A DNA stretch of 64,000 bases from Aminobacter carboxidus. Its GTDB lineage: Bacteria; Pseudomonadota; Alphaproteobacteria; Rhizobiales; Rhizobiaceae. The stretch lies in NCBI RefSeq assembly GCF_014863355.1, contig NZ_JACZEP010000005.1:124001-188000 (forward strand), written 5' to 3'. Shown here one piece after another: positions 28,639-54,584 of this stretch; the stretch's first letter is position 1, and the number at the start of each line of letters is the position of its first letter. Below the pieces are notes generated by a model. It did no database searches, was not told where the DNA came from, and saw only the letters and a program-made list of their open reading frames with translations. The translations under genes and the position numbers were made by a program.

Positions 28639-28660
28639 GATGTTTAATTATATAAACATC
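28639..28660. promoter_or_regulatory. Regulon site A, inverted repeat GTTTA-N6-TAAAC
   Basis: GTTTAATTATATAAAC occupies 28642-28657, with the arms extended by gat and atc on the two sides. It lies between aacS and the thioesterase gene and very close to the thioesterase start, fitting a repressor site. Related sites occur at 32006, 41367, 43683, 48411 and 48461. Confidence 0.72.
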
Positions 28661-28661
28661 C

Positions 28662-29174
28662 ATGAGTCAACTTTCGAAACCCATCGTCATTGTCTCGCAG
28701 ATCGACCCGACCTGGCGGGACTACAACGGCCACGTCAACTACGCCGCCTACGCCATGGCGGCCGACCCGGCGATCGATGCGATCTATGCCGCAGCAGGGC
28801 TCGACTGGAACTATCGCAAGAGACAAAGCCGCTCGGATTACGTTGTCGAAAGCCGCTTCTTTTACCTTCGGGAGATCAGAAGTGGCGGAAAGATCGAAGT
28901 TCGCGCCCGTCTTGTCGATTTCGACCGCAAGCGCACGCATATCTATTGCGAGATCCGCGACCACGACAATGGCAGCCTCTCGGCCACGGCACACATCGTT
29001 TCGCTGCATGTCGACTCGGCCAGAGCCAAAAGCGCCGAGTTCGAGGACTTTGCCTTGGAGGGCTTCGCCGCACTCAAGGCCGAGCATGACCAGTTGCCGG
29101 TTCCCGATATTTTCGACGACACGGTCACTCTGACGCGCCGTCTCGGCCAAGCCCGGGCTGCTCCCGCCGCATGA
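28662..29174 (+). CDS. Betainyl-CoA-thioesterase-like hotdog protein
   Basis: A 170-residue thioesterase of the 4HBT hotdog fold. IDPTWRDYNGHVNYAAY is the catalytic helix region with the conserved Asp; FDRKRTHIYCEIRDHDNG and SLHVD follow in the order seen in betainyl-CoA thioesterase of carnitine catabolism (CdhB, or the C-terminal domain of fused carnitine dehydrogenases). In that pathway it hydrolyses betainyl-CoA, the product of BKACE. The next gene, convergent from the right, is a carnitine-dehydrogenase homologue, so the two parts of the fused enzyme are encoded separately here. The start is tight against regulon site A, with almost no leader. Confidence 0.75.
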   Translation: MSQLSKPIVIVSQIDPTWRDYNGHVNYAAYAMAADPAIDAIYAAAGLDWNYRKRQSRSDYVVESRFFYLREIRSGGKIEVRARLVDFDRKRTHIYCEIRDHDNGSLSATAHIVSLHVDSARAKSAEFEDFALEGFAALKAEHDQLPVPDIFDDTVTLTRRLGQARAAPAA

Positions 29175-29224
29175 AAGTTTGCCCGCCGCGCATGAAGCGA
29201 GGCGAGCCCTTCTTTTCGCGAACT

Positions 29225-30160
29225 TCAGTTGGTCAGATCGAGGGCCGAGGCGGCCTTGAGCACATTGACCAGCGCTTCGTCGCGGCGTGCCGCCACTTCG
29301 CCGACAGATCGTTTTGCGAAGAAGGTTTCTGCCTGGGCGATGACCGTCTCACGCAGTTCGTCGGTCATTGTCGGCTGCCCCAACTCGCCCCAACTGGTTG
29401 CGATCTCTTCTTCAAATATCTCGAAATAGCGCCGCATGCCTGTGCCGCCGCCGAGCGCGTAGGTCAGGAATGGTCCCATGAAGGCCCAGCGCAAGCCCGG
29501 TCCGAACCGCACAGCATTGTCAACGTCTTCTACGGTGGCGGCGCCCGTTTGGATCAGATGCATCGCTTCCTTGAAGATCGCGTTCTGCAGCCGGTTGGCG
29601 ATGTAGCCAGATATCTCCTTGGCAAGCACCAGTGGTTGCTTGCCGATATCGCGATAGAAGGCCTCTGCCTTGGCAACAGCCCATTCGGCGGTCTTGGGCC
29701 CGGCGACGATCTCGACCAGCGGAATGAGATAGGGTGGGTTGAAAGGGTGGCCGACCAGACAGCGTTCGGGATGAGTACAGGCCGACTGCAGCCGCGAGAC
29801 GAGTAGGCTCGACGAACTCGAGGCGATGATCGCCGTATGCGGTGCTGCAGCATCCATCTCGGCAAACAGCCTGATCTTCAGCTCTTCGCTTTCCGGCCCG
29901 CTTTCCTGCACGAAGTTGACGCCTTCCAGCGCTTCGCTGAGGCTTGATGCGATCACGATCTCGGGGATGCGCTCGGGCACCGAGGCGTCGAGGCCGCGCA
30001 GAATCGGCCATGCTTTGGCGATCTTCTCCGGCAGCTGAGCAAGGCTTCCTGGATTGGGATCGAAAGCCTTCACCACCAGCCCTCGCGACAGGAAGTAGGC
30101 AGCCCAGCCGGCCCCGATGGTGCCTGTGCCGACCACCGCGATAGTCCTTATTTCGTTCAT
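29225..30160 (-). CDS. L-carnitine-dehydrogenase-like 3-hydroxyacid dehydrogenase
   Basis: A 311-residue NAD-dependent dehydrogenase of the 3-hydroxyacyl-CoA dehydrogenase superfamily. IAVVGTGTIGAGWAAYF is the Rossmann motif, FVQESGPE and SSSSSLLVS line the active site, HPERCLVGHPFNPPYLIPLVE carries the catalytic His, and GLRWAFMGPFLTYALGGG is a stretch I know from carnitine dehydrogenase. The length fits that enzyme without its thioesterase fusion. It would oxidise a 3-hydroxy acid such as L-carnitine to the 3-keto acid that BKACE cleaves. A lambda-crystallin or L-gulonate-type dehydrogenase is the main alternative. It is transcribed in the same direction as etfAB, 57 bases downstream of etfA. 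Confidence 0.75.
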   Translation of the reverse strand: MNEIRTIAVVGTGTIGAGWAAYFLSRGLVVKAFDPNPGSLAQLPEKIAKAWPILRGLDASVPERIPEIVIASSLSEALEGVNFVQESGPESEELKIRLFAEMDAAAPHTAIIASSSSSLLVSRLQSACTHPERCLVGHPFNPPYLIPLVEIVAGPKTAEWAVAKAEAFYRDIGKQPLVLAKEISGYIANRLQNAIFKEAMHLIQTGAATVEDVDNAVRFGPGLRWAFMGPFLTYALGGGTGMRRYFEIFEEEIATSWGELGQPTMTDELRETVIAQAETFFAKRSVGEVAARRDEALVNVLKAASALDLTN

Positions 30161-30217
30161 TTCAACTCCCTTTCAATTCCGGCAATCTATCGGCGGCAAC
30201 GGTCGCTGACATCCCGC

Positions 30218-31147: not shown

Positions 31148-31171
31148 GTTGTTGATCCCTTTCCGCTTCGC

Positions 31172-31921: not shown

Positions 31922-32005
31922 TAAACAGCCTCAATTGTTGCCTGTAAAAAATAATCGACTTATATGGGCAAAATATCGGATAATTGCGGATATAGAAAGG
32001 GTCTT

Positions 32006-32021
32006 GTTTAAAAAATCAAAC
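32006..32021. promoter_or_regulatory. Regulon site B, GTTT-N8-AAAC
   Basis: GTTTAAAAAATCAAAC lies 40 bases before the acyl-CoA dehydrogenase at 32061 and 84 bases before etfB. The distance to the start codon equals that of site F upstream of the binding protein at 48517. Confidence 0.72.
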
Positions 32022-32060
32022 CGCCCTATGGTGAGGCGACTGAAAAACAGGTGCCCCCAA

Positions 32061-33257
32061 ATGCCTATCGATAACGAATTCCGCAAACAGATCCTGGCCA
32101 GCGTCGAGCGTTTCGTCACCGATCGCGTCACCCCGCGCGCTGCCGAGATCGACGCCACAAACACCTTTCCAGCTGACCTCTACAGCGAAGCCGCCAGCCT
32201 CGGCGTATTCGGCCTGTGGGTGCCCGAGGAGTATGGCGGCATCGGCCCCGACATGGTCACGCCGCTCCTGATCTCCGACATCATCGCCCGTGTCAGCCCG
32301 TCCTTTGCGCTGATTTTCTCCAACTGCGGCGATGCGGTTACCCCGATCGTTAATTTCGGCAGCGACGAGCAGAAGCGCCGTCTGCTGCCAGGCATTGCCG
32401 CCGGCACGACCATTCCCTGCTTCGCGCTCACCGAGCCCGGTTCGGGTTCGGATGCGGCCTCGATCTCAACCCAGGCGCGGGCTGCGGAAGGCGGCTATCG
32501 CATCAGCGGTCGCAAGATGTGGATCACTAATGGCGGTGTCGGCGATGTCTTCACCGTCTTTGCCAAGACCGACCCGGAAGCCGGCAACAAGGGAATTTCG
32601 GCGTTCATCGTCGAGCGTGGCGCCGAAGGTTTCACCATCGGCCGCAACGAGGACCTGATCGGCCTGCGCGGCAGCCCCGCCACGGAACTGGTGTTCGAGG
32701 ACGTCTTCGTTTCAGCCGACCAGATGCTGGGTGAGAAGAACCGGGGCTTCAAGATCGCGATGTCGACACTCGACGAGGCCCGGCTCAATTGTTCGGCCAT
32801 GGCGCTCGGGGCTGCCACCGGTGCGCTTGAATGTGCGATCAACTATTCGAAAGAGCGTGTGCAGTTCGGCAAGCCGATCATCGAGCACCAGGGCCTGGCG
32901 TTCCTGTTGGCCGACTGTGCCGCTCGCCTGACAGGCTCACGCGCCATCTGGCAGCGGGCGATGTCGATGCTCGAGCAGTCACGCAGCCGCGAGGCAAGCA
33001 CGATTGCGGCCATGGCCAAGCTGCTTTGCACCGAAACCGCGATGCGCGTGACGACCGAATGCGTCCAGGCGATGGGCGCCAATGGCTTGTCCAAGGCCTA
33101 TCCGGTCGAGCGCTTCATGCGCGACTGCAAGCCATTCGAGGTGTTTGACGGCACCAGCCAGATCCAGAAGCTGCTGATCGGCCGTCATCTTGAGAAATAT
33201 GGATTGCCGGAGATCTCGCACGAAGAGATCGCGGCGCTGGGAATTGCGGCCGAGTAG
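32061..33257 (+). CDS. Acyl-CoA dehydrogenase (first of three)
   Basis: A 398-residue flavoenzyme. CFALTEPGSGSDAASIST and KMWITNGGVGDVFTVFAKT bind FAD and substrate, and the C-terminal RFMRDCKPFEVFDGTSQIQKLLIGRHL closes the active site. Where MCAD has the catalytic Glu in YEGT, this protein has Asp (FDGT), as do the other two in the cluster. It introduces a 2,3 double bond into an acyl-CoA and reduces ETF, which is encoded divergently. The ATG at 32061 starts MPIDNEFRKQ. It begins an apparent operon through the SDR, amidohydrolase, hydratase and acyl-CoA synthetase to 37826. Confidence 0.92.
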   Translation: MPIDNEFRKQILASVERFVTDRVTPRAAEIDATNTFPADLYSEAASLGVFGLWVPEEYGGIGPDMVTPLLISDIIARVSPSFALIFSNCGDAVTPIVNFGSDEQKRRLLPGIAAGTTIPCFALTEPGSGSDAASISTQARAAEGGYRISGRKMWITNGGVGDVFTVFAKTDPEAGNKGISAFIVERGAEGFTIGRNEDLIGLRGSPATELVFEDVFVSADQMLGEKNRGFKIAMSTLDEARLNCSAMALGAATGALECAINYSKERVQFGKPIIEHQGLAFLLADCAARLTGSRAIWQRAMSMLEQSRSREASTIAAMAKLLCTETAMRVTTECVQAMGANGLSKAYPVERFMRDCKPFEVFDGTSQIQKLLIGRHLEKYGLPEISHEEIAALGIAAE

Positions 33258-33280
33258 CCCGCACCAATCTGGAGACTGAC

Positions 33281-34012
33281 ATGAGCAAGGGTACTGTTTT
33301 CGCCACCGGCGCCGCCGGGGGCATCGGGGAAGCTACGGTCGCGCGTCTGCTGGACGACGGCTACACCGTGGTCGCGGTTGATCTGAGCAGCGAGGGTCTG
33401 GAAACGCTGGCAAAACGTCATGCCGGCCAGAAACTGCATACTGTCCGGGCCGACTTGACCGACGAGAAGGCGGCACGTGCCGCCGTGCACAAGGCCAGGG
33501 AGATGGCCGGGCAGATCGACTATCTCGTCAACCTGATCGGCTGGTTCGGCACGCAGCCCTTCGTCAAGGAAGACTCGGCCTACTGGCGCAAAACCATCGC
33601 CATCAACTTCGAGGCGCTGCTCTACGTCACGCATGAGATCCTGCCGGAGATGATCGAGCGCAAGAAGGGCAAGATCATCAATATCACCTCCGACGCCGGC
33701 AAGGTCGGCCAGAGCGGCGAGGCGGTCTATTCGGGCATGAAGGGGGCGGTCATCGCCTGGACCAAGAGTCTGGCGCGCGAGAATGCCCGCTACGGGCTGA
33801 ACATCAACTGCACCGCACCCGGACCGACCGAAACCGCGCTCGAGCTGGCGCAGGATCCGGACGTCATCGGCCGGGTCGTCAAGGCGATCCCGTTCCGCCG
33901 CTTCGCCAAACCCTCGGAACAGGCGGCGATGATTTCTTTCCTGTGCTCGAAGGACGCCGACTTCATCACCGGTCAGGTCTACAGCGTCAGCGGCGGCCTG
34001 ACGATGATCTGA
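33281..34012 (+). CDS. SDR, similar to 2-hydroxycyclohexanecarboxyl-CoA dehydrogenase (BadH-like)
   Basis: A 243-residue short-chain dehydrogenase. ATGAAGGIGEAT near residue 8 binds NAD, LIGWFG replaces the usual NNAG, and NITSDAGKVGQSGEAVYSGMKGAV holds Ser, Tyr and Lys of the catalytic triad. SDAGKVGQSGEAVYSG is a stretch I associate with BadH, the NAD-dependent 2-hydroxyacyl-ring-CoA dehydrogenase of alicyclic acid breakdown. It should oxidise a 3-hydroxyacyl-CoA made by a hydratase of the cluster. It lies 23 bases after the acyl-CoA dehydrogenase and 46 before the amidohydrolase on the same strand. Confidence 0.82.
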   Translation: MSKGTVFATGAAGGIGEATVARLLDDGYTVVAVDLSSEGLETLAKRHAGQKLHTVRADLTDEKAARAAVHKAREMAGQIDYLVNLIGWFGTQPFVKEDSAYWRKTIAINFEALLYVTHEILPEMIERKKGKIINITSDAGKVGQSGEAVYSGMKGAVIAWTKSLARENARYGLNINCTAPGPTETALELAQDPDVIGRVVKAIPFRRFAKPSEQAAMISFLCSKDADFITGQVYSVSGGLTMI

Positions 34013-34058
34013 TCGGGCAACCGATCCCGCACGCATCTCATAACTAGGGAACACAGCC

Positions 34059-34904
34059 ATGGTCATGGCCATCGACTTTCTGTGCAATCATTTCACTGCC
34101 GACAGCATAGCCAAGAACTACCTCCACAATGAGGAAGAGGCGGCACGCTTCGCCCAAATCGGCCTGACCGACAACCTGGTTGGCAACGATCCCGAGGTCT
34201 TCCTTGCCGAGATGTCCAAGATCGGCGTGGAAAAGCTTCTGGTACCCTCGATCGTCACCTGGTCCTACTGGCGCTCTGAGCCGGTCGAACACACGACGCC
34301 TGAGGAAGTCATTGAGATTCGCAAGGCGGCGCCCGAGCGCATCTTTGGTCTTTACGGTGTGGATGTGCGCAAGCGCATGGACGGTGTGCGCGAGCTTGAA
34401 ATGCTGGTGCGCGAACACGATTTCCGAGGCATTCACATCCACCCGCATGGCTTCGGTTTCCCTCCTGACCATGCCTACTACTTTCCGTTCTATGCCAAGT
34501 GCGAGGAACTCGGCGTCCCGGTGGTGATCTCGATGGGCCATACGGTCGATCTAATGCCGATCGAGAACGGTAAGCCGATCCATCTCGACAAAATCGCGCT
34601 CTACTTTCCCAATTTGAAGATCGTCTGTGCTCACACCGGCTGGCCCTGGGTCGAGGAAGCCATCGCGCTCGCCTGGAAGCATCCCAACGTCTTCATCGGT
34701 ACCTCAGCTTACAAGCCCAAGAACTGGTCGCCACAGCTGGTCAAGTTCATCAACAGCTGGGGCAAGGGCAAGGTTATGTGGGGCACCGACTTCCCGCTGA
34801 TCATGCAGAAGGAATCGATCGAGCAGGTGAAGGCTCTGGGCCTGAAGCCGGAGGCAGAGGCGTCGCTTCTGCACGGTACAGCCCAGCGCGTCTTCGGCCT
34901 CTGA
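34059..34904 (+). CDS. Amidohydrolase-2 family protein
   Basis: A 281-residue TIM-barrel hydrolase or decarboxylase of the amidohydrolase_2 family. Metal-site and active-site positions visible are GIHIHPHGFGF near residue 128, VVISMGHT, VCAHTGWPWVEEA near 190 and VMWGTDFPL near 245. The N-terminal strand reads IDFLCNHF where most members have HxH, so the first metal ligand pair is altered. Family members decarboxylate or hydrolyse ring or keto acids. In this operon it may open or trim an intermediate between the dehydrogenase and the CoA ligase steps. No closer assignment is possible from sequence alone. Confidence 0.8.
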   Translation: MVMAIDFLCNHFTADSIAKNYLHNEEEAARFAQIGLTDNLVGNDPEVFLAEMSKIGVEKLLVPSIVTWSYWRSEPVEHTTPEEVIEIRKAAPERIFGLYGVDVRKRMDGVRELEMLVREHDFRGIHIHPHGFGFPPDHAYYFPFYAKCEELGVPVVISMGHTVDLMPIENGKPIHLDKIALYFPNLKIVCAHTGWPWVEEAIALAWKHPNVFIGTSAYKPKNWSPQLVKFINSWGKGKVMWGTDFPLIMQKESIEQVKALGLKPEAEASLLHGTAQRVFGL

Positions 34905-34929
34905 TCCACTTGTTACAAGGAGTTTGACT

Positions 34930-35688
34930 ATGAGCGCAGAATCCGGCCTCGAAGCCACTTTCGAAAACGGCGTTGCCAAACTGATGATCCGCCGCGAGCG
35001 GCGCCGCAACGCGCTCGATGATGCCACGATGGAGGCGCTGCGTGACGCGCTGATCACGGCCAAGCGCACTGGCATCGGCGCTATTGTGCTCTGCGGTGAG
35101 GGTACCAAGGCGTTCTGCGCCGGTTCTGACCTCAAGGAGATGGCCGATCAGAATTATGATGAGCGCCTGCTGCATACAGAACTAGGGCAGGAGATCGGTG
35201 ATTTGATCGAGGCGCATCCGGCCGTGGTCATCGCCGGCATTGAGGGGTATTGCCTCGGCGGCGGCCTGGAACTGGCTTCCGCTTGCGACTACCGCATCGC
35301 CGGCCGCGGCGCCGTGCTGGGCTTGCCGGAAGTCGCCATCAATGCGCTCCCGTCCTGGGGAGGAACCGTGCGTATCCCCCGCATTGTCGGTGTCGGCCGT
35401 GCCCGCGAACTGGTGATCTTCGGCCGCATGCTGAGCGGTGCTGAAGCCGAGCAGTGGGGCCTCGTCGCCCGCGCGGTCGAAGATGGCACGGCTGTAGCGG
35501 CCGCCATGGACCTGGCAAACAAGATCGCCACCGGCCATGATCGCAAAACGGTGTCGATTGCCAAGCATTTGCTGAGCTTCGGCTACGGCATTCCGGCGCG
35601 CAGCGGACGCCATCTGGAGTATCTTGCCGACATGAACCAGCTTGGCAGCGATGCGGTCGAGCAGGGCGTGGCCAAGTACAAGAGCTGA
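34930..35688 (+). CDS. Enoyl-CoA hydratase/isomerase family protein (first of two)
   Basis: A 252-residue crotonase-fold protein. KAFCAGSDLKEMA supplies the first oxyanion-hole NH, and GYCLGGGLELASACDYRIAG the second, the two anchor motifs of the family. LPEVAINALPSWGGTVRIPRIVG is the typical active-site loop. It hydrates, isomerises or hydrolyses an enoyl- or keto-acyl-CoA. The start ATG at 34930 follows AAGGAG; a TTG six bases before is possible. It is inside the operon from 32061 to 37826. Alternative functions inside the fold (ring hydrolase such as BadI) cannot be excluded and would fit the BadH-like neighbour. Confidence 0.88.
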   Translation: MSAESGLEATFENGVAKLMIRRERRRNALDDATMEALRDALITAKRTGIGAIVLCGEGTKAFCAGSDLKEMADQNYDERLLHTELGQEIGDLIEAHPAVVIAGIEGYCLGGGLELASACDYRIAGRGAVLGLPEVAINALPSWGGTVRIPRIVGVGRARELVIFGRMLSGAEAEQWGLVARAVEDGTAVAAAMDLANKIATGHDRKTVSIAKHLLSFGYGIPARSGRHLEYLADMNQLGSDAVEQGVAKYKS

Positions 35689-35714
35689 CGGAATCGCTGT
35701 AAGTGAGGGAGGAG

Positions 35715-37826
35715 ATGAGTTTGATTGAGCATGCGGCCGGCGGTGTAGCGTCCGGACAGAACCTCACCGCGCTGCTGTCGCCACGGTCGATCGCAGTCAT
35801 CGGGGCGTCGCCACGCCCCGATACTCCAGGCCATGACACGCTGGTCCAACTCCGTCGCATTGGCTACACCGGCAAGATCATTCCAGTGAACCCGAAATAT
35901 GAGGAGATTGCCGGGTTGCGCTGTGTTCCGAGCCTGGCGGCACTCGACGACACGCCCGACCATGCCATCGTTGCCGTCAACAACGACATCGTCGAGGCAG
36001 CGATCGGCGAGGCAGCGGCGCGCGGCATCAAGGCGGCGACGATCTTCGCCAGCTGCTATCTCGAAAACGATACCAGCCCGAAGCTGGTCGAGAGGCTCGC
36101 CGAACGTGCCCGCAACAATGGCATGTCGATCTGCGGCGCCAACTGCATGGGCTTCTACAACATGGCTCATCGCGTCTCGGCGAGCTGGTTCCCCATCGAG
36201 GAACTGCCCTCGGGACCGATCGCCTTCGTCAGCCATTCGGGCGCGGTCTTCGCCGCATTCCTGGGTCTCGACCGACGGCTCGGCTACAGCCTCGCCGTCT
36301 CGGCTGGGCAGGAGCTGACCACCACGGTCGCCGACTATCTCGACTATGCGCTCGACCTCGAGGAAACGCGTGTCGCTGCACTTTTCCTGGAGACAATCCG
36401 CGACCCACAGGGTTTCGCCAAGGCGCTCGAAAAGGCGCGCGACCGTGATGTTCCCGTGGTCGCGGTCAAGGTTGGCCGCACTAGCCAGAGTGCTCGCCTG
36501 GCTGAGAGCCACTCCGGTGCGATCGCCGGCAACGACGCCGCCTACCAGGCGCTTTTCGACCGCTACGGTGTCATCCGCGCCCGCGATGTCGACGAACTGG
36601 CGGCGACGGCAACGCTGCTGTCGTCGCCGAAGAAATACGTATCCGGCGGCCTTGCTGCGATCACCGATTCCGGGGGCGCGCGCGGCCTGTTGATCGACCT
36701 CGCCGACGACGAGAAGGTCGGCTTCGCCCAGATCGGCAAAGCCACCGAAACCGTGCTGCGCGAAAGGCTCGACTATGGGCTGGAGCCCGTCAACCCGCTC
36801 GATGCCTGGGGCTCGGGCCGCGACTATGTCGGTGTCTATCGCGACTGTCTGAACGCGCTGATGGCCGATCCGGATACCGGCATCGGTATGTTCTTGTTTG
36901 ACATCGCGCTGGAGGATCATCTGTCGCGTGGTTTCGTTGGCGCCTGCATCGACGTGGCGAATGCCACCGACAAGCCGGTGTTCGTCGCCACCAATTTCGG
37001 CAAGCTGCCGCGCACCGAACTGGCAAACCAGCTTTATGCCGCGGGCATTCCGTTGATTGATGGCGTCGGCACTGCGTTGCGGGCTGTGAAGCATCTTGTT
37101 TCCCGCAAGCCCCCATCAGATTCGATCGCGACGACGAGCAAGATCATCGATACGGCAGTGGTAGAGGGGTGGAAGCGCCGCCTTGGCAAGGCAAATGGTT
37201 CGTTCGACGAAGCGACGGGTTATGCGCTTGTCCAGGACTGGGGCATTGCGACGCTGTGCCACCACAGCGTGGCCAACAGGCAGGAGCTTGAGCAGAAGCT
37301 TGAGGGTTTCCCACTGCCCGCGGTGCTCAAGACGGCGGCGCCCGGCATCCTGCACAAGTCGGATGTCGGTGGCGTGTTCGTCGGCCTCAAGGACAAGGCG
37401 GCCGTGCTGGCGGCTTATGACGACATGGCAGGCCGGCTCGGCAAGGAAGCGATTCTCGTCGAGATGGCGCCCAAGGGCGTTGAACTGATCGTCGGCGGGC
37501 TGATCGATCCGCAGTTTGGGCCGATCGTCATGATCGGTGCCGGCGGCATCCTGGTCGAGCTGTTCAAGGACGTGGCCTTCGTGCTGGCGCCGGCCTCGCG
37601 CGAGGAGATCCGCCGCGCCATCGACAAGCTAAAGACGGCAGCAATCCTCGGCGGCCTGCGCGGTGCGGCTGCTGCCGACATAGATGCTGTCGTGGCCACG
37701 ATCGCCTCGTTCTCGCAACTGGTGGCCGATCTTTCGGAAGACATCACCGGCATTGAGATCAACCCGCTGCTGGCGACGCCAAAAGGGTGCGTTCCGCTGG
37801 ACGTTTTGGTGACGTTGAAGAGTTGA
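35715..37826 (+). CDS. Acyl-CoA synthetase, NDP-forming type (CoA-binding plus ATP-grasp)
   Basis: A 703-residue fused acyl-CoA synthetase. Residues 15-140 are the CoA-binding domain (LLSPRSIAVIGASPRPDTPG, IIPVNPKYEEIAGLRC), 150-450 the succinyl-CoA-ligase-like part with phospho-His candidate in ESHSGAIAGND, and 480-700 the ATP-grasp domain (LPAVLKTAAPGILHKSDVGGV and IEINPLLATPKG). Such enzymes form acyl-CoA from a carboxylic acid using ATP to ADP. It closes the operon started at 32061 and is followed by a terminator. The start ATG at 35715 follows GGGAGGAG. It is one of two ligases, with the PaaK-like one at 38502, that could activate the pathway substrate. Confidence 0.88.
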   Translation: MSLIEHAAGGVASGQNLTALLSPRSIAVIGASPRPDTPGHDTLVQLRRIGYTGKIIPVNPKYEEIAGLRCVPSLAALDDTPDHAIVAVNNDIVEAAIGEAAARGIKAATIFASCYLENDTSPKLVERLAERARNNGMSICGANCMGFYNMAHRVSASWFPIEELPSGPIAFVSHSGAVFAAFLGLDRRLGYSLAVSAGQELTTTVADYLDYALDLEETRVAALFLETIRDPQGFAKALEKARDRDVPVVAVKVGRTSQSARLAESHSGAIAGNDAAYQALFDRYGVIRARDVDELAATATLLSSPKKYVSGGLAAITDSGGARGLLIDLADDEKVGFAQIGKATETVLRERLDYGLEPVNPLDAWGSGRDYVGVYRDCLNALMADPDTGIGMFLFDIALEDHLSRGFVGACIDVANATDKPVFVATNFGKLPRTELANQLYAAGIPLIDGVGTALRAVKHLVSRKPPSDSIATTSKIIDTAVVEGWKRRLGKANGSFDEATGYALVQDWGIATLCHHSVANRQELEQKLEGFPLPAVLKTAAPGILHKSDVGGVFVGLKDKAAVLAAYDDMAGRLGKEAILVEMAPKGVELIVGGLIDPQFGPIVMIGAGGILVELFKDVAFVLAPASREEIRRAIDKLKTAAILGGLRGAAAADIDAVVATIASFSQLVADLSEDITGIEINPLLATPKGCVPLDVLVTLKS

Positions 37827-37848
37827 GGCACTTGTCGACAACACAACA

Positions 37849-37882
37849 AAGAGCCGCCGACAGTGATGCCGGTGGCTCTTTT
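37849..37882 (+). terminator. Rho-independent terminator of the 32-38 kb operon
   Basis: agagccgccg and cggtggctct pair over a loop around acagtgatgc, followed by tttt. It begins 23 bases after the synthetase stop. Confidence 0.75.
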
Positions 37883-39878: not shown

Positions 39879-40090
39879 CCTTGGTCCTCGTTGATCGTTT
39901 TTGTTGAGTTCTCGATCCGGACCGATCGATGGGAATTCCAGGCGTCGGCCCGAAGTGACGTCGGTCAGCCGCGGCTGGCTCCTGCGACTACCAGCACCAC
40001 CCCAATGACAAACTGGGCGCCGCACGTCGTTGGTTCCCCTTGGCTCGTGAACTCGTACCGGCCCTGCTGCGCGATGTCGGTGGGTTGAGT

Positions 40091-41290: not shown

Positions 41291-41366
41291 GTGACGCGTC
41301 TCCGTTTAGAAAATAAGGTCGCTGGGTGGGTTCACCCTTGCCTATTTGTCGAAAATACCCATAAAT

Positions 41367-41384
41367 GTTTGAAAAAATCAACAC
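41367..41384. promoter_or_regulatory. Regulon site C, GTTTGA-N5-TCAACAC
   Basis: GTTTGAAAAAATCAACAC is a variant of sites B, D and E with one more base between the arms. It lies in the 109-base gap between divergent genes at 41290 and 41400, only 16 bases before the plus-strand start. Confidence 0.6.
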
Positions 41385-41399
41385 AAAAAGGATTACGAT

Positions 41400-42209
41400 A
41401 TGGAGGGTAGCACAAACGGCGAGGCCTGTTTCCTCGACGTCGGCGGATGGGCGCATCCTTTCGGCCGCGCGCCATGGCACTTCGAAGGTGAAACGCTAAG
41501 TGTCTATGTCGAGGCCGCTTCGGGCTCTTTGGCACCGTTTTTTCCCGAACCCCTGACGCTTGCCGGCCCACCGGTCTTCCGGCTGACTGTGCATGCGTTG
41601 CGTTCTGATTGTGGTCTCGGACGGGAATGGGCGGCCCGCAATCCGCGTCGCTCGCAATTCCACGAAGCGGTGATTGCATTCAACGCCGAGATCGATGGTG
41701 TCAGTGGCAACTGGGATCCGTTCATGTGGACCGACGCCGAGGCCCAACTCTCCGTCGGTCGGGAGCTCTACGGTTTTTCGATGCGGCTCGGCGAAATCTC
41801 CATGACCCGGCGCCCAGCACTTAACGGCTGGCGAAGTGGTGATATCATTGCCGCGCAGGCCTGTCAGGACGGCCGCCCGATCTTCTCGATGGAGATGGAA
41901 CTGGGCAAGACCGGCGCCGAGGCGGCGCCTGTGCCGGTCGCTGGCACGCCGGTATTTTACTCGCGCCGCACTTTGCCGCGCCCAGGCAATCCAGCCGTAT
42001 CGGATGTGGAACTTTGCAGGACGACGATGCAGAATCTGCGCCTTGGCGAGGTCTGGTCGGGACATGGCGCATTTCGTATCGAGCATGATCGGCTCAGTGC
42101 GTTGGCCGATGGCAAGGTGCTCGGCGCGCGCTGGAGCAGCTTTGAAATGACAAAGATTCCCGCCGAAGTTCTCGGCCGGTGGACTGTAAACAGTGAAGGT
42201 AGGAGCTGA
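41400..42209 (+). CDS. Acetoacetate-decarboxylase-family protein without the Schiff-base lysine
   Basis: A 269-residue protein with the acetoacetate decarboxylase fold. The family core is clear in FHEAVIAF, WDPFMWTDAEAQLSVGRELYGF and IIAAQACQDGRPIF. In true decarboxylases GREI-x-GFPKK provides the Schiff-base Lys; here the motif reads GRELYGFSMRL (residues 121-130), with Ser-Met-Arg in place of Pro-Lys-Lys. It therefore should not decarboxylate by the known route. A new lyase or isomerase role, or a binding role, is possible. It heads a two-gene unit with the SDR at 42214 and faces regulon site C. Confidence 0.8.
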   Translation: MEGSTNGEACFLDVGGWAHPFGRAPWHFEGETLSVYVEAASGSLAPFFPEPLTLAGPPVFRLTVHALRSDCGLGREWAARNPRRSQFHEAVIAFNAEIDGVSGNWDPFMWTDAEAQLSVGRELYGFSMRLGEISMTRRPALNGWRSGDIIAAQACQDGRPIFSMEMELGKTGAEAAPVPVAGTPVFYSRRTLPRPGNPAVSDVELCRTTMQNLRLGEVWSGHGAFRIEHDRLSALADGKVLGARWSSFEMTKIPAEVLGRWTVNSEGRS

Positions 42210-42213
42210 CGAC

Positions 42214-42972
42214 ATGATCGACCTAAAGAACAAGACCATCCTCGTCACCGGTTCATCGCGCGGCATTGGCAAGGCCATTCTCGAGACCTGCCACGCCGCG
42301 GGGGCTAATGTCGTCCTGCACTATGGGCGCAGTGGCGCTGCGGCCGAGGCAATCCGCGGCGAGCTTGGCGCCGAACGCTGCCTCGCCGTTCAGGGCGAAC
42401 TCGGCGAACTCGGCGACATTCAGCGCCTGTGGCAAGCTGCAGTGGCATGGAAGGGCAAGGTCGATGTGCTGGTCAACAACGCCTCCATCCGCATCGACCT
42501 CGACCTCAGTACGGCGGATACCGAATGGGATGCTGCCTGGCGCAAGGTTCTCGATGTCAACCTGATCGGCCCGGCGCACCTGTCGCGTATGGCGGTTCGG
42601 CATTTCCAGCAAAGCGGCGGTGGCTCGATCGTCAACATCGCCAGCCGCCCGGCCTTTCGCGGCGACACGGCGACATGCCCGCATGACGGTGCCGCAAAAG
42701 GCGGCCTTGTCTCGCTTACCCGGCAGATCGCCCGCCACTATGGCGGCGACAACGTCAAGGCTTTCGTGGTGGCGCCCGGTATCATCGAGACCGACCAGGC
42801 CTCGGAATTCTTCGAAGTCAGCGGCCGCGGCCCGTGGCTCGAGGAAATCCCCGCCGGCCGCTTCGGCCGCCCTGCGGATATCGCCAACATCGTCGCGTTC
42901 CTGGCGTCGGGACTGGGCGACTATGCCACCGGCTCGACCATCGACGTCAATGGCGCGTCATATGTTCACTGA
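42214..42972 (+). CDS. SDR with the catalytic tyrosine replaced by aspartate
   Basis: A 252-residue short-chain dehydrogenase fold. GSSRGIGKAIL near residue 13 binds NAD(P), NNAS at 88-91 and Asn116 are conserved, and Ser144 and Lys162 are in place. Position 158, normally the catalytic Tyr of YxxxK, is Asp (PHDGAAKGG); the codon GAC is one base from TAC. The enzyme should be inactive as a dehydrogenase or use another mechanism. It resembles the truncated SDR at the right edge of the window (shared pattern GANVVL-x-YG, WAEAIAWK versus WQAAVAWK). The start follows AGGAGCTGACGAC, five bases after the preceding stop. Confidence 0.82.
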   Translation: MIDLKNKTILVTGSSRGIGKAILETCHAAGANVVLHYGRSGAAAEAIRGELGAERCLAVQGELGELGDIQRLWQAAVAWKGKVDVLVNNASIRIDLDLSTADTEWDAAWRKVLDVNLIGPAHLSRMAVRHFQQSGGGSIVNIASRPAFRGDTATCPHDGAAKGGLVSLTRQIARHYGGDNVKAFVVAPGIIETDQASEFFEVSGRGPWLEEIPAGRFGRPADIANIVAFLASGLGDYATGSTIDVNGASYVH

Positions 42973-42980
42973 TCGGCGCG

Positions 42981-43547
42981 TCAGAAGGACGGAGGCGTCG
43001 CCGCACTGACGACTTCGCAGATATCGTCGCTGACATTGCGGAACCGGTGCGGGAGGGAGCTGTTGAAATAATACGCCTCTCCCGCTTTCAAGATCTTGCG
43101 TTCGACACCGACGGTCACTTCGAGTGAGCCTTTCAGAACGATGCCGCATTCCTCACCGGAATGTTGCAACATTTCAACGCCCGTATCGGTGCCTGGACCG
43201 TAACGCTCCATCACCATCTGCAACTTCCGGCTCTTGTCTCTTCCGTTGATGAGAAGGAACGAGATGTCGCCGCCGCCAATTTCGACAAGGTCTTCCTTGC
43301 TAAAAAAGACGTTGGAGGCACTCTCCATGTCAAGAGAGAAGAAATCAGCAATACTGATGGAAAAAACAGACAATATCTTCTTGAGAGATGCGACCTGCGG
43401 GCTGGTTGCCCCTTGCTCGATAAGCGAAATTGTCCCGTTGGTAAGGCCAGCTCTTCGGGCCAGCTCACGTTGCGAAAGTCCATACGCGGCGCGCAGGGTG
43501 GCAAGCCGTTCGCCGACGCCATCCGAGTCATGTTTCGGTTCGCTCAC
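42981..43547 (-). CDS. XRE-cupin transcriptional regulator
   Basis: A 188-residue regulator. Residues 12-66 are an XRE helix-turn-helix (LRAAYGLSQRELARRAGLTNGTISLIEQG), and residues 115-185 a cupin sensor (HSGEECGIVLKGSLEVTVG, AGEAYYFNSSLPHRFRN). The organisation matches PuuR-like proteins that sense polyamines or other small amines and acids. It is encoded inside the catabolic cluster, divergent from the operon at 43723, with regulon site D between, which makes it the prime candidate for the factor that binds the GTTT/AAAC sites. Whether it represses or activates cannot be seen. The ORF ends nine bases from the convergent SDR stop. Confidence 0.88.
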   Translation of the reverse strand: MSEPKHDSDGVGERLATLRAAYGLSQRELARRAGLTNGTISLIEQGATSPQVASLKKILSVFSISIADFFSLDMESASNVFFSKEDLVEIGGGDISFLLINGRDKSRKLQMVMERYGPGTDTGVEMLQHSGEECGIVLKGSLEVTVGVERKILKAGEAYYFNSSLPHRFRNVSDDICEVVSAATPPSF

Positions 43548-43682
43548 TGTGACCTACTTTTTCGGTTTGTTGCTGGTTTTCAACTATGCCGAACTCTCCC
43601 TGATCGGCAAGCTGTAATATGCGATGCTTGCCCGGTCGGCCCCGGTCAATCTTCTCTAGACAGTCTTTTTCAAGTGTGTAAT

Positions 43683-43698
43683 GTAGAAAAAATCAAAC
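43683..43698. promoter_or_regulatory. Regulon site D, GTAGAAAAAATCAAAC
   Basis: Fourteen of 16 bases agree with site B. It lies 25 bases before the acyl-CoA dehydrogenase start at 43723 and 136 bases upstream of the divergent XRE-cupin gene. Confidence 0.7.
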
Positions 43699-43722
43699 AC
43701 ACCGAATGGCGGGAGGGCCTTT

Positions 43723-44880
43723 GTGAACTTCGAACTTACCAGTCAGCAGGCCCTGATTGCGGAGACTGCGCGGCGTTTCGTAGCGACGCATTTGATGCCG
43801 CATGAAGAAAATATCGAACGCTCAGGTGAGGTTCCGGATGAACTGCGCCTCGAACTCAAGGATCTGGCGCGTGAGGCGGGTCTTTATGCGGCAAACATGC
43901 CCGAAGCAGTCGGCGGTGCTGGACTGAACAATATCGAGCTCGCCCTGCTCGAGCGCGAGCTGGGACGTGTCAGCCTGTCCCTGGCGAGTTGCGTACTGCG
44001 CCCGGCGCCCATCCTTAAGGCCTGTGCCGGCGAGCAGATCGAACGTTATCTCAAGCCAACTGTGAGGGGCGACCGCGTCGATTGTTTTGCGCTAACCGAG
44101 CCGGGTGCGGGTTCCGACGCAAACAACATCTCAACCCAAGCGACAGCAGATGGCGACGACTTCATCCTCAATGGCTCGAAGCATTTCATCAGCCATGCCG
44201 ACGTTGCCGATTTCGCCATCGTCTTTGCCGTCAGCGGCATGACCGACGGTCCGCGTCCGCGCAAGCTGATCACCTCCTTCCTCGTCGACAAGGGGACGCC
44301 TGGATTTGAGGTGCGGCGCATGGGCCGTGCCGTCGGCAACCGCGGCTATCATCAATGCGAACTGTTCTTCACCGATTGCCGGCTGCCCGGGAGCCAGGTT
44401 CTGGGCGAGATGCATCGCGGTTTCGACGTTGCGAAGGAATGGTTGTTCGCCAGCCGCCTCGCCATTGCTGCCAACTGCGTTGGGCGTTCCGAGCGCATCC
44501 TCGAAATGGCGCTGGAGTGGGCGGCAACCCGCAAGACATTCGGCAAGCCGATCGCCGAGCATCAAGGCATCGGTTTCAAGCTCGCCGACATGGCGACCGA
44601 GATCGAGGCGGCGCGACTGCTCATGCTTCAGTGTGCCTGGAAGATGGATCGCGGCGAGGGCAGCGAGGCGCTGCTCGGCATGGCCAAGATGTATGGCAGC
44701 GAAACGTTAGGTCGCGTCGCCGACCACGCCGTGCAGATATTCGGCGGCATGGGTGTGATGCAGGAGATGCCGATCGAGCGCTTCTGGCGTGATGCGCGCG
44801 TCGAGCGAATCTGGGACGGCACGTCGGAGATTCAGCGCCACATGATCGCGCGCGAACTGACGCGCCCGTATAAGCAGTAG
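43723..44880 (+). CDS. Acyl-CoA dehydrogenase (third of three)
   Basis: A 385-residue acyl-CoA dehydrogenase. CFALTEPGAGSDANNIST and FILNGSKHFISHADVADFAI are the flavin and substrate motifs. RFWRDARVERIWDGTSEIQRHMIARELT ends the protein; Asp again stands in the catalytic Glu position. It shows more CaiA/MCAD-like features than the first two. Translation begins at a GTG in GAGGGCCTTT GTG AAC. It starts a tight operon: hydratase, BKACE, flavodoxin-like protein and transporter ATPase follow with overlaps or gaps below 15 bases. Confidence 0.92.
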   Translation: MNFELTSQQALIAETARRFVATHLMPHEENIERSGEVPDELRLELKDLAREAGLYAANMPEAVGGAGLNNIELALLERELGRVSLSLASCVLRPAPILKACAGEQIERYLKPTVRGDRVDCFALTEPGAGSDANNISTQATADGDDFILNGSKHFISHADVADFAIVFAVSGMTDGPRPRKLITSFLVDKGTPGFEVRRMGRAVGNRGYHQCELFFTDCRLPGSQVLGEMHRGFDVAKEWLFASRLAIAANCVGRSERILEMALEWAATRKTFGKPIAEHQGIGFKLADMATEIEAARLLMLQCAWKMDRGEGSEALLGMAKMYGSETLGRVADHAVQIFGGMGVMQEMPIERFWRDARVERIWDGTSEIQRHMIARELTRPYKQ

Positions 44881-44890
44881 GAGGAAAACC

Positions 44891-45676
44891 TTGGAAACTC
44901 TCGTCAAGTCGACGCGTCTCGGCAAGATCAACATCATCACGCTCAACCGCCCCAAGGCGAACGCGATCAACATCGCCATGAGCGAACAGCTGACTGCTGC
45001 GTTCAAGGCTTTCCGCGAGGACGACGGTCTGGTCGCCGCCATCGTGACCGGGGCCGGAGACAAATTCTTCTGCGGTGGCTGGGATATGAACGAGGCGGCC
45101 AGCGGCGTGAAGGACAATGAGGAGCACGGCGCAGGCGGCTTTGCCGGCCTGCAGGAATTGCTCAATTGCAACAAGCCGATTATCGCCGCCCTCAATGGCC
45201 TGACCGTCGGCGGCGGCTGGGAAATTGCGCTCGCTTGCGACCTGGTGCTGGCCACACCCAACACTCGCTTCTGGTTCCCTGAAGTGCAGCGCGGCTTCAT
45301 CGCCGACGCCGGCGGCGTCCAGCGCCTGCCGCGCATGCTGCCCAAGCGCATCGCCATGGAAATCCTTCTGACCGGCCGCTGGTTCGAGGTCGCGGAAGCC
45401 GAGCGTTGGGGCATGATCAATGCGATCGTCGACAGCGCGGAGCTGATGCCGCGCGCGATAGCCCTTGCCGAGAAGATCGCCGAGGGTGCGCCGCTCTCGG
45501 TCCAGGCGACCAAGGAGGTCGTTCGTGCCACAGAGGTGATGACCGACCGCGAAGCGTTGACTGGCCTCGCCGGCCTCGATCTGCCGGTACACAAGCGGAT
45601 GATGGCATCGTCCGATTTCATCGAGGGACCGACGGCATTCACCGAAGGCCGTGCGCCGGTCTGGGCCGGCCGGTAA
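44891..45676 (+). CDS. Enoyl-CoA hydratase/isomerase family protein (second of two)
   Basis: A 261-residue crotonase-fold protein. DKFFCGGWDMNEAA and NGLTVGGGWEIALACDLVLA form the oxyanion hole, and WFPEVQRGFIADAGGVQRLPR the active-site loop with the Glu expected of hydratases. LMPRAIALAEKIAEGAPLSV is the usual C-terminal helix. It probably hydrates the enoyl-CoA made by the preceding dehydrogenase. The start is a TTG with TAGGAGG nine bases before it; that AGGAGG overlaps the stop of the preceding gene. CaiD-like crotonobetainyl-CoA hydratase activity would fit the proposed pathway but is not shown by the sequence. Confidence 0.9.
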   Translation: METLVKSTRLGKINIITLNRPKANAINIAMSEQLTAAFKAFREDDGLVAAIVTGAGDKFFCGGWDMNEAASGVKDNEEHGAGGFAGLQELLNCNKPIIAALNGLTVGGGWEIALACDLVLATPNTRFWFPEVQRGFIADAGGVQRLPRMLPKRIAMEILLTGRWFEVAEAERWGMINAIVDSAELMPRAIALAEKIAEGAPLSVQATKEVVRATEVMTDREALTGLAGLDLPVHKRMMASSDFIEGPTAFTEGRAPVWAGR

Positions 45677-45689
45677 GGGACTGCAGGCC

Positions 45690-46613
45690 ATGAGCGAATC
45701 CAAAAAGACCATCATCACCGCCGCGATCACCGGCTCGATCCATACGCCGAGCATGTCGCCCTATCTGCCGGTCACGCCGAAGGAAATCGCTGACCAGGCG
45801 ATCGACGCGGCTCGGGCAGGTGCGGCGATCGTCCACCTTCATGCCCGTAATCCGGAAACCGGCGAACCGGCCTCCGATCCAAAGCTCTATCGCGAGATCA
45901 TCAGCCGCATCACCGACGCTTGCGATGTCGTCGTCAATATCACCACAGGCGGTGGTAACAACATGAGCGTCGAGCAGCGCCTCGCCGCAGCCGTCGAGCT
46001 CAAGCCCGAGATCTGCTCGCTGAACATGGGCTCGATGAATTTCCCCATGCACACGCTGCTGCGCAAGCACACTGAGTTCAAGCATGGCTGGGAGTGCGAA
46101 TATATTGAGGAAAGCCGCGACTTCGTTTTCAAGAGCACGTTCAAGGACATCGAAGATACGGTCAAGCTGCTGTCGCCGCTCGGTACGCGCTTCGAGTTCG
46201 AGTGTTACGACGTCGGCCACCTCTACACGCTGTCCTTCTTCGAGCGCGAAGGCCTGGTCGAGGCGCCATATGCGATCCAGTTTGTGATGGGCATCCTCGG
46301 CGGCATCGGCGCATCGCTCGAGGAGCTTGTCCACCTCAAGGGCACTGCCGACCGGCTGTTCGGCGACCGTTATCGCTTCTCTGTTCTGGCGGGCGGCAAG
46401 GCCCAGATGCAGATCGCTGCGGGTGGCGCCATCTTGGGTGGCAATGTTCGTGTCGGCATGGAAGACAGCCTGTTCATTTCCGCCGGCAAGCTCTGCAAGA
46501 GCAATGCCGAACAAGTGGAGAAGGCTGTACGCATCCTGACCGAGCTGTCTTGCGAGATAGCTACGCCCGAAGATGCGCGGCGGACGCTGAAACTGAAGGG
46601 CAGGGTGGGCTGA
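45690..46613 (+). CDS. Beta-keto acid cleavage enzyme (BKACE, DUF849)
   Basis: A 307-residue zinc-dependent TIM-barrel enzyme of the BKACE family. It condenses a beta-keto acid with acetyl-CoA and splits the product into a new acyl-CoA and acetoacetate. AAIVHLHARNPETGEP near residue 45 gives the His-x-His metal ligands, VVNITTGGGNNMS the substrate loop, and MGILGGIGAS with FSVLAGGKAQMQIAA later conserved positions. Known members use 3-keto-5-aminohexanoate, dehydrocarnitine and others; the pocket cannot be typed by eye. Acetoacetate is then used by aacS (26.6 kb). The stop overlaps the next start (TGATGA). Confidence 0.93.
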   Translation: MSESKKTIITAAITGSIHTPSMSPYLPVTPKEIADQAIDAARAGAAIVHLHARNPETGEPASDPKLYREIISRITDACDVVVNITTGGGNNMSVEQRLAAAVELKPEICSLNMGSMNFPMHTLLRKHTEFKHGWECEYIEESRDFVFKSTFKDIEDTVKLLSPLGTRFEFECYDVGHLYTLSFFEREGLVEAPYAIQFVMGILGGIGASLEELVHLKGTADRLFGDRYRFSVLAGGKAQMQIAAGGAILGGNVRVGMEDSLFISAGKLCKSNAEQVEKAVRILTELSCEIATPEDARRTLKLKGRVG

Positions 46614-47272
46614 TGACGATGCCGGGCGAACGGATATGCAGTCTGATCGCCAGTCCACGTCGCGACGGCAACTCCAGCCGGCTTGCCAATGCCTTGGCCG
46701 AAGGTGCCGCATCGGCTGGGCATCAGGTCGAAACGCTGCATATCGTCGATTTCGTCAGCGGCTTCCTGCGTGATTGCCGTGACTGCCGCAACGCGGACGG
46801 CGAGTGCAGCATCGACGACCGCTACGGCGAGTTGTTGCTGGAGCACATACTGCCAGCCAGTGCCGTCGTGATTGCTACGCCGATCTACTGGTATGGGTTA
46901 CCGGCGCAGTTCAAATGTGTCGTCGACCGGCTGGTCTGCTACACGAGCCAGCGGCACCGAGGCTCCGTCGATGTCCTGCGCCAACTCAGCGGTAAAAAAT
47001 ATGTGCTGCTTTTGTCGTCGGAGGAGAGCAACTTTGGCATGAGCGTCGGCATTGTCCAGCAGATGTCCGACTTCTGCCGCTACACCTATGGTTCGCTTGT
47101 TGCCGTGATGAATGCCGTCGGCAACCGTCGTGGCGAGATCGAGCGCGACCCGGCTGACCCGCTTGGGCAGGCGAGAAAAATCGGTTCGGACCTCTTCGGT
47201 ATCCGCGCCACCGACTTCAGGATAGATACGCCGCGACCCGGCACTGTCTGGCTTACAGGAGAGCCCAAATGA
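46613..47272 (+). CDS. Flavodoxin-fold NAD(P)H oxidoreductase with Cys cluster
   Basis: A 219-residue protein of the NADPH-dependent FMN reductase group. SLIASPRRDGNSSRLANAL binds the FMN phosphate; DCRDCRNADGECSIDDRY is the Cys-rich loop seen in a flavodoxin branch with C-x2-C-x6-C; VVIATPIYWYGLPAQFKCVVDR lines the flavin. A reductive step on an FMN cofactor or a direct two-electron transfer is likely. It sits between BKACE and the transporter ATPase, overlapping both by one and four bases, so it belongs to the pathway. No partner oxygenase is encoded nearby, so a role as a reductase for a flavin mono-oxygenase would need a distant partner. Confidence 0.85.
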   Translation: MTMPGERICSLIASPRRDGNSSRLANALAEGAASAGHQVETLHIVDFVSGFLRDCRDCRNADGECSIDDRYGELLLEHILPASAVVIATPIYWYGLPAQFKCVVDRLVCYTSQRHRGSVDVLRQLSGKKYVLLLSSEESNFGMSVGIVQQMSDFCRYTYGSLVAVMNAVGNRRGEIERDPADPLGQARKIGSDLFGIRATDFRIDTPRPGTVWLTGEPK

Positions 47273-48414
47273 CTGGACTCGCACAACGACTTCCCGATGA
47301 TGCTGGCGCGCACGCCCCTGCCAAGAAGGTGCTGTGCAGCTTCAGCAAGGTCAACAAGAGTTATGATGGCAAGACGCGCGTCGTAGCCGATCTCGACCTC
47401 GATATCTTCCAGGGCGAGTTCCTGACACTGCTAGGGCCATCCGGTTCCGGCAAGACTACGACCCTGATGATGCTGGCCGGCTTCGAGCAGCCCAATGAAG
47501 GCAGCATCGAGCTTGATGGCACCTCCATTGTCGGCGTCCCCGCCTATTTGCGCAACATCGGCATGGTGTTTCAGAACTATGCGCTGTTCCCGCACATGAC
47601 CGTTGCCCAGAACCTCGCCTTCCCGCTGCGCATGCGTGGGGTCGGCAAGGTCGAGCGCGAGCAGAGGGTCAAGAACATTCTTGACGTGGTGCGCCTGCCC
47701 GAGGTCGCCGACCGGCGTCCGACGCAGTTGTCAGGTGGCCAGCAGCAGCGTATCGCGCTGGCCCGTGCGCTGATCTTCGAGCCGCGTCTGGTGCTGATGG
47801 ACGAGCCGTTAGGTGCCCTCGACAAGCAGCTGCGCGAGCACATGCAGATCGAGATCAGGCAGTTGCATGAAAGGCTTGGCATCACGGTCGTCTATGTCAC
47901 GCACGATCAATCCGAGGCGCTGACCATGTCCGACCGGGTCGCCGTCTTCGCCCATGGCAAGATCCAGCAGATCGCGGCGCCGAATGACATCTACGAGCGC
48001 CCTGCCAACGCCTTTGTCGCGGACTTCATCGGCGACAACAACCAGCTGCGCGGCATCGTCAAAGGCCATGAGGGCCATGAACACGAGGTCGATTGCGGCG
48101 GCGTGACTGTTCGCGCCGTTTCGGAACACCAACACCAGATCGGCACCGAAGTTCTGGTTGCATTCAGGCCTGAAAATGCGGTGCTCGACCATCCCATCCC
48201 GCCCCTGCCCAACAAGTTCGATGTGCAGGTCTCGGAGAAGATCTATCTCGGCGACCACCTCAGGCTCCGCTGTCGGTTGGCAAATGGCGACGTCATCACG
48301 GTGAAAATTTCCAACAAGGCTCAGCGTGGCGACTTCGCTCCAGGCTCGGCAACATCCTTCTATTGGTCGGGATTGGACTGCCATGTCCTGTCGACCGAAA
48401 TCGCAAAGTTGTAG
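47269..48414 (+). CDS. PotA-type ABC transporter ATPase
   Basis: A 381-residue ATPase for a spermidine/putrescine-type importer. GPSGSGKTTTLMMLAGF is Walker A, FQNYALFPHMTV the Q-loop, LSGGQQQRIALARALIF the signature, LVLMDEPLGALD Walker B and YVTHDQSEA the H-loop. The C-terminal 110 residues are a TOBE_2 domain (FVADFIGDNNQLRG, LVAFRPENAV). Its start overlaps the flavodoxin-like gene in an ATGA junction, tying uptake to the catabolic operon. The binding protein and two permeases follow at 48517-51657 after a regulated promoter. Regulon site E begins inside its stop codon. Confidence 0.93.
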   Translation: MTGLAQRLPDDAGAHAPAKKVLCSFSKVNKSYDGKTRVVADLDLDIFQGEFLTLLGPSGSGKTTTLMMLAGFEQPNEGSIELDGTSIVGVPAYLRNIGMVFQNYALFPHMTVAQNLAFPLRMRGVGKVEREQRVKNILDVVRLPEVADRRPTQLSGGQQQRIALARALIFEPRLVLMDEPLGALDKQLREHMQIEIRQLHERLGITVVYVTHDQSEALTMSDRVAVFAHGKIQQIAAPNDIYERPANAFVADFIGDNNQLRGIVKGHEGHEHEVDCGGVTVRAVSEHQHQIGTEVLVAFRPENAVLDHPIPPLPNKFDVQVSEKIYLGDHLRLRCRLANGDVITVKISNKAQRGDFAPGSATSFYWSGLDCHVLSTEIAKL

Positions 48415-48426
48415 AAAATATCAAAC
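48411..48426. promoter_or_regulatory. Regulon site E, GTAGAAAATATCAAAC
   Basis: It differs from site D at one base (nearly identical 16-mer), overlaps the stop codon of the ATPase gene and lies about 90 bases before the binding-protein start. Confidence 0.68.
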
Positions 48427-48460
48427 ACGCCACTGGACGAGCACCCTCCTTTCCGTTAGA

Positions 48461-48476
48461 GTTTAGTTAATTAAAC
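48461..48476. promoter_or_regulatory. Regulon site F, GTTTAGTTAATTAAAC
   Basis: A near-perfect inverted repeat (GTTTA/TTAAAC arms) 40 bases before the binding-protein start at 48517, the same distance as site B from its gene. With site E it gives this promoter two candidate operators. Confidence 0.72.
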
Positions 48477-54582: not shown

Positions 54583-54584
54583 GA

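Follow-up and report, generated by a model that had tools for sequence, protein, structure and literature searches.

We analysed a 64,000-base stretch of the Aminobacter carboxidus genome (hereafter the window; C27:124001-188000 of genome G000, which comprises 6,287,532 bases, or 6.29 Mb, in 31 contigs) that contains a catabolic gene cluster, six related short sequences at its promoters, and the gene of an XRE-cupin transcriptional regulator (Table 1). Scans with domain and family models assigned the cluster products to acyl-CoA dehydrogenases, enoyl-CoA hydratases, short-chain dehydrogenases/reductases (SDRs), CoA ligases, BKACE, and acetoacetate-CoA ligase, as well as a 4HBT thioesterase and an ABC transporter with a polyamine-type ATPase. 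The ATPase scored 381.3 bits with TIGR01187, above the cut-off of 355.6, and the BKACE (45690-46613) scored 475.6 with the 3,5-dioxohexanoate model NF053538, exceeding the cut-off of 430. According to the part of PMC10470551 drawn on here, the 3,5-dioxohexanoate reaction is known in phloroglucinol degradation. The regulator combines an XRE helix-turn-helix (HTH_3, PF01381, 3.2e-12) with a C-terminal cupin domain (Cupin_2, PF07883, 1.1e-17), the architecture of XRE-cupin regulators. None of the titles listed in literature searches concerned this cluster or its operator.

The original prediction, made by eye and partly confirmed here, described the six sequences as a shared 16-bp inverted repeat with arms GTTT and AAAC. 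All six were confirmed at 28642, 32006, 41367, 43683, 48411, and 48461, each occurring once in the window. The arms were found at 28642, 32006, and 48461, but not at the other three, of which 43683 and 48411 start with GTAG, while in 41367 bases 13-16 are CAAC. Half-to-half pairing, out of eight positions, was 6, 5, 3, 3, 4, and 7 in order of position, compared with 2.5 for shuffles. The right half-site ATCAA(A)C is the main feature common to the sites with a weak left arm (41367, 43683, and 48411); all six have one half-site and an A/T centre in common. They belong to the promoters of the thioesterase gene, acdA, adc, and acdC (one each) and sbp (two), no site being more than 15 kb from the gene of the regulator. 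Operators 1 and 2 lie in intergenic DNA that also adjoins aacS and the etfBA-hcdh genes. The claim that two sites lie exactly 40 bases before a start codon turned out to depend on the way of counting: measured from the first base of the site, the distance is 40 for 43683 only, whereas 40 bases lie between site end and start codon for 48461 and 39 for 32006.

Within the genus of the window, three of nine other genomes have an XRE-cupin relative of 42-43% identity (E<=1e-30) and six have none; phylogenetic footprinting was therefore carried out on the clusters of G224 and G082, which belong to one genus other than that of the window, and of G485, from another family. The XRE-cupin gene lies within all four clusters, with orthologues 91% (G224), 81% (G082), and 85% (G485) identical to the window protein. 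When three or four species were aligned, 67 of the 80 columns within sites were invariant, against 115 of 492 in the rest of the intergenic DNA (per-site counts in Table 1). The adc site was the weakest case (p 0.017). At the sbp site 5b, the arms are retained in four species and the centre varies; its G485 form is GTTTAAAATATTAAAC. Furthermore, in G082 the acdA operon has the opposite orientation, with some 25 kb between it and acdC, and all 16 operator bases are kept. The thioesterase gene was not found on the G082 stretch examined, whose acdA sits at the contig end. Exact words of at least 11 bases common to the window and G224 in nine intergenic stretches included five operators (5b partly). 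Seven other such words, none of them an operator match, were a 24-mer at 31940, 15-mers at 31970 and 41301, a 16-mer at 49584, and three of lesser length; three of the nine stretches had no such word. The 24-mer at 31940 was considered as a further operator and dropped, as it had no operator match.

Rarity in the genome was assessed with patterns and with models. The bare arms, GTTTN8AAAC, were rejected as a regulon marker: they occur at 26 genomic places compared with 32 for the reversed control, and are thus not enriched. Among these places, only the three palindromic sites of the window have a centre with no more than one G/C. The pattern GTTTRAWWWWTYAAAC, which was composed with knowledge of the sites, matched 12 genomic places with up to two mismatches (reversed control, 4). 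Six of them are the window sites, inside 20 kb; these include all three places with at most one mismatch, and the six further places all have two. As a separate observation, C1:487061 and C1:1377239 of the same genome carry an identical 16-base near-match, GTTGAATTAATAAAAC, in opposite orientation.

Model R1 was built from 16 sites of three species, those of the window included; the sites for model R2 came solely from G224 and G082. At E<=10, R1 found only the six listed sites in the whole genome; all eight matches in G224 and four of five in G082 fell within the cluster. In G485, which was outside R1 training, sites were found at the thioesterase gene, acdA, acdC, and sbp (11.3-18.3 bits, against 6.8 for the next separate place), and the reversed model had no match on this stretch. 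These are the four promoters that G485 has in common with the window, adc having no match in 60 kb of G485. With the held-out model R2, the six sites took the top six positions both in the window (12.3-15.5 bits, against 5.0 for the next separate place) and in the genome (E 0.19-2.3); the single other genomic match at E<=10 was on C1 (E 7.3), with 150 of 174 first-look candidates scored. The reversed R2 model had no genome match and reached at best 6.3 bits in the window. Few targets elsewhere are a trait of XRE-cupin regulons. The genome-wide model searches rest on models R1-R3, whose G082 acdC row has one A too many; when the 16 training rows were checked against the sequence, 15 were found and this one was not. 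We thus built a corrected matrix from 14 sites located in the sequence of G224, G082, and G485, the G224 acdC site being counted twice because its 16 letters are those of G224 operator 5a. With this held-out matrix, the window sites ranked 1-6 of 63,985 positions at 20.1-27.0 bits (next, 13.0), whereas 100 column-permuted matrices gave on average 0.02 positions at site-level score, with a maximum of 1. The six sites are therefore beyond chance, though not by their arms.

Table 1 Predicted targets, regulator, and operators in the window. The short gene names acdA, acdC, adc, and sbp are labels coined in the present analysis. Column counts give invariant columns in the site and, after the semicolon, in the rest of the intergenic stretch.
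Feature	Position	Strand	Basis or remarks
4HBT-type thioesterase, predicted target	28662..29174	+	Domain scan
Acyl-CoA dehydrogenase (acdA), SDR, amidohydrolase, enoyl-CoA hydratase, ADP-forming acyl-CoA synthetase-like protein, predicted targets	32061..37826	+	Domain scan; presumably one operon, by spacing
Acetoacetate-decarboxylase-like protein (adc), SDR, predicted targets	41400..42972	+	Domain scan
XRE-cupin transcriptional regulator, candidate repressor	42981..43547	-	HTH_3, Cupin_2, PuuR model
Acyl-CoA dehydrogenase (acdC), enoyl-CoA hydratase, BKACE, flavodoxin-fold protein, PotA-type ATPase, predicted targets	43723..48414	+	
ABC transporter binding protein (sbp) and permeases, predicted targets	48517..51657	+	
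Predicted operator 1, GTTTAATTATATAAAC	28642..28657	.	Upstream of thioesterase gene; over possible -10 TATATA; G224 identical; three species, 15/16; 10/31
Predicted operator 2, GTTTAAAAAATCAAAC	32006..32021	+	Upstream of acdA; box spacing equal; four species, 16/16; 35/123
Predicted operator 3, GTTTGAAAAAATCAACAC	41367..41384	+	Upstream of ADC-like gene; within 24-base exact match to G224; three species, 11/16; 34/93
Predicted operator 4, GTAGAAAAAATCAAAC	43683..43698	+	Between xre-cupin and acdC; four species, 13/16; 27/159
Predicted operator 5a, GTAGAAAATATCAAAC	48411..48426	+	50 bases ahead of 5b; G224 has it too, at 49 bases; none recognisable in G082 or G485
Predicted operator 5b, GTTTAGTTAATTAAAC	48461..48476	.	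Upstream of binding-protein gene; four species, 12/16; 9/86
Candidate half-operator, TCCGTTTAGAAAATA	41301..41315	-	Upstream of acdB; 15-base exact match to G224, 14 of them in G082; absent from R1 and R2 match lists; not counted
Candidate weak operator, GTTGCTGGTTTTCAAC	43568..43583	.	In front of xre-cupin; G224 has GTTGATGGTTTTCAAC; no counterpart seen in G082 and G485 alignment rows; not counted

Most of the sites overlap or follow possible promoter boxes, which would suit a repressor, but these boxes are not found by a consensus scan. By alignment, boxes with 17-base spacing are proposed at four promoters. At acdA, TTGTTT-17-TATGGT recurs in four species (TATCGT in G082), and operator 2 would cover the -35 box (32004-32009) and the spacer. 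The putative thioesterase boxes are TTGCGC-17-TATATA, with TTGTTT and TTGCAC as the -35 box in G224 and G485, respectively, and those of sbp are TGGACG-17-TAGAGT, with operator 5b at the -10 box (TATAGT in G224; TGGATT and TATGGT in G082; TAGACG and GTAAGT in G485). At adc, operator 3 directly follows a possible TTGCCT-17-ATAAAT, which is similar in G224 and shifted by one base in G082. Upstream of acdC, TAGACA is kept in four species. A position of the sites at promoters would fit repression by occlusion, which is reported for XRE-cupin proteins of Pseudomonas (PMC7901475). The gap between operator 1 and the thioesterase start codon is 4 bases in both the window and G224, and 3 bases in G485, leaving no room for a ribosome site, and this message is possibly leaderless. 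In addition, 31940-31984 upstream of acdA includes 24- and 15-base stretches identical in G224 and contains a promoter-like site (31955-31984); the adjacent etfBA has no match in the G224 stretch.

Given the conservation of the sites, their rarity elsewhere, and their linkage to the XRE-cupin gene in four clusters, the proposal of one regulon with this protein as candidate regulator is supported, and we consider it likely that a single local repressor, most plausibly the cluster-encoded XRE-cupin protein, uses all six sequences as operators. When window-gene matches of at least 60% identity were mapped, including the BKACE, which was searched in frame and is present in G224, G082, and G485, the clusters of G224 and G485, both contiguous, retained no uncovered stretch longer than 235 and 243 bases, respectively, so that they have no space for a second regulator gene; the core cluster part of G082 has at most 415 uncovered bases. 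In 13 of 17 more distant relatives of the protein, several of which are closely akin to each other, TCRAAC or GTTYGA was present within 165 bases at the gene start, with a chance expectation that we estimate at about one sequence in six. An own-promoter palindrome with no more than one mismatch is present in five of the 17 (with a centre of four bases in two and of six in three), and reversed R1 reached at most 5.5 bits on this set. The segment TNGTISLIEQ of the window protein, presumably its recognition helix, corresponds to TNSTISLIEA or TNSTVSLIEA in ten relatives (53-56% identity).

Several results weigh against this assignment. Three of the six sites are poor inverted repeats. The sites were also said to lie upstream of all major catabolic operons, which was overstated: they occur at five promoters only, and with the whole window searched at E<=10, neither paaK (38502-39878) nor the mutase/MeaB/thiolase/ligase block (51855-57286) had an R1 or R2 match. 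A sigma-70 consensus scan recovered none of the proposed promoters (4 found, 4.2 expected) and marked 31955-31984 as promoter-like, which would place operator 2 downstream of the acdA start; the acdC boxes were not confirmed by script. Among the 17 relatives, four have no comparable half-site in the promoter of their own gene, the centre is six rather than four bases long in three of the five good palindromes, the best palindrome of ten is matched or beaten in at least 40% of shuffles, and R1 scores well on L017 only (14.3 bits; the rest at most 6.3). Finally, a LysR gene 65% identical to that of the window (57806-58798) is present in G485, some 15 kb away from the cluster, and was not seen in the G224 stretch.

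This last point bears on the possibility that the regulon is real but bound by a regulator encoded elsewhere, the XRE-cupin protein being a passenger or a controller of acdC only. Genes for TetR (17341-17952), DeoR (20217-20984), and LysR proteins do lie within 26 kb of the XRE-cupin gene, and a LysR gene, likewise not seen in the G224 stretch, separates the two cluster parts in G082. However, the window LysR and DeoR have no match in 60 kb of G224 or G082 (E<=1e-20), whereas the XRE-cupin gene is in all four clusters; the like sites in the promoters of its relatives tell against an outside regulator as well, as do ten loci around other XRE-cupin relatives (seven of 11 in this genome and three in the genus), where R1 reached at most 5.4 bits. 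We regard a regulator from elsewhere as rather improbable. Slightly less probable still are two site classes read by two proteins, namely the palindromes (28642 and 48461) and the A-tract sites in which a single half is strong (43683, 48411, and 41367), in which case the pair 48411/48461 would be read by different regulators. The classes differ by eye, adjoin at sbp, and tend to be held by the same promoters across species. Nevertheless, operator 2 has an intermediate form, and at acdC G485 carries GTTTGAAAAATCAAAC and G082 GTTCGAAAAATCAAAC; the weak-arm form can therefore derive from a palindrome. That the sites merely reflect the A/T-rich promoter texture of a G+C-rich genome, repetitive by coincidence, would agree with their position at promoters and the lack of enrichment of the bare arms, but is very improbable in view of the conserved sbp arms around a changing centre, the failure of reversed and permuted controls, and the concentration of half of the 12 pattern matches inside 20 kb.

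Control by a local XRE-cupin repressor would be in line with known systems. In the sections of PMC7901475 used here, characterised Pseudomonas XRE-cupin proteins are mostly local repressors, with three known binding motifs, all palindromic, and most sites in core promoters. PauR and PsdR of Pseudomonas aeruginosa resemble the present case in their XRE helix-turn-helix and cupin, in the control of uptake and metabolic genes, and in palindromic, mostly core-promoter sites (PMC7901475 and PMC10965056, each as far as used here). They control polyamine or dipeptide genes instead of beta-oxidation-like ones, and the PsdR site is TTAAGN5CTTAA (PMC10965056, same portion) rather than GTTTRAN4TYAAAC. 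The best NCBIfam match of the window protein is PuuR, the putrescine repressor of Escherichia coli, and the polyamine-type transporter ATPase of the cluster is a further likeness; the 174.8 bits, however, are below the curated cut-off of 211 for the equivalog. PuuR controls gamma-glutamyl-putrescine genes, and no gamma-glutamylation enzyme was present among the cluster proteins scanned. Relatives in Rhizobium and other Hyphomicrobiales (51-56% identical) share the own-promoter half-site in 13 of 17 cases and, in the ten aligned, a nearly identical recognition helix, but their arms are often GTTCGA/TCGAAC and, where inspected, their genes are divergent from an aminotransferase gene, not from a cluster like the present one. 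This neighbour matched the AptA model in both cases tested and is annotated as an aminotransferase in four more.

Under the repressor model, the ideal operator would be an inverted repeat of 16 bases (GTTTRA-N4-TYAAAC, with A/T in the centre) that a helix-turn-helix dimer recognises, and several sites would combine one strong and one degraded half. Bound at the promoters, the repressor would block initiation; the pathway substrate, or an acyl-CoA or keto-acid intermediate, may then be bound by the cupin domain and release it, and genes for uptake, activation, oxidation, and cleavage would be induced together. More tentatively, and with a doubtful chance of being right as a whole, the operators at the five promoters could mark the borders of an undescribed pathway, in which a PuuR-like sensor that once served amine metabolism now responds to a carboxylic acid or a polyketide-like compound, the substrate being cleaved by a BKACE of the triacetate type. 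Different induction levels might then be set by operators of graded form (a full repeat, a single strong half, and a tandem pair spaced by 50 bases), with a leaderless thioesterase message starting 4 bases past its operator.

Judged by its amidohydrolase (E<=1e-100), the putative pathway occurs in three of 394 family genomes, themselves a sample of a larger group; the cluster is also present in one genome of another family. The three are the same as those with an XRE-cupin identity of at least 81%, and ten other genomes of the 394 have relatives of 53-56% identity. A scan of genome contigs gave a single locus, in a Rhizobiaceae metagenome-assembled genome, and viral contigs searched with acdC gave no relative. 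Elsewhere in the window, PADLOC models identified CBASS-type defence genes at 10234-13435, with a 2TM (Cap15-like) effector on the minus strand and a patatin phospholipase effector and an oligonucleotide cyclase on the plus strand; a phage-integrase-family gene is located at 16538-17224.

As a kind of system, the one proposed here would be ordinary, a local XRE-cupin regulon of an already known type. It gives a sequence-defined predicted operator for the PuuR-like XRE-cupin branch in Hyphomicrobiales, and it marks the genes that would act jointly within an uncharacterised catabolic cluster. The substrate may thereby become findable, as whatever releases the protein from these sites would be the substrate or an intermediate of the pathway.

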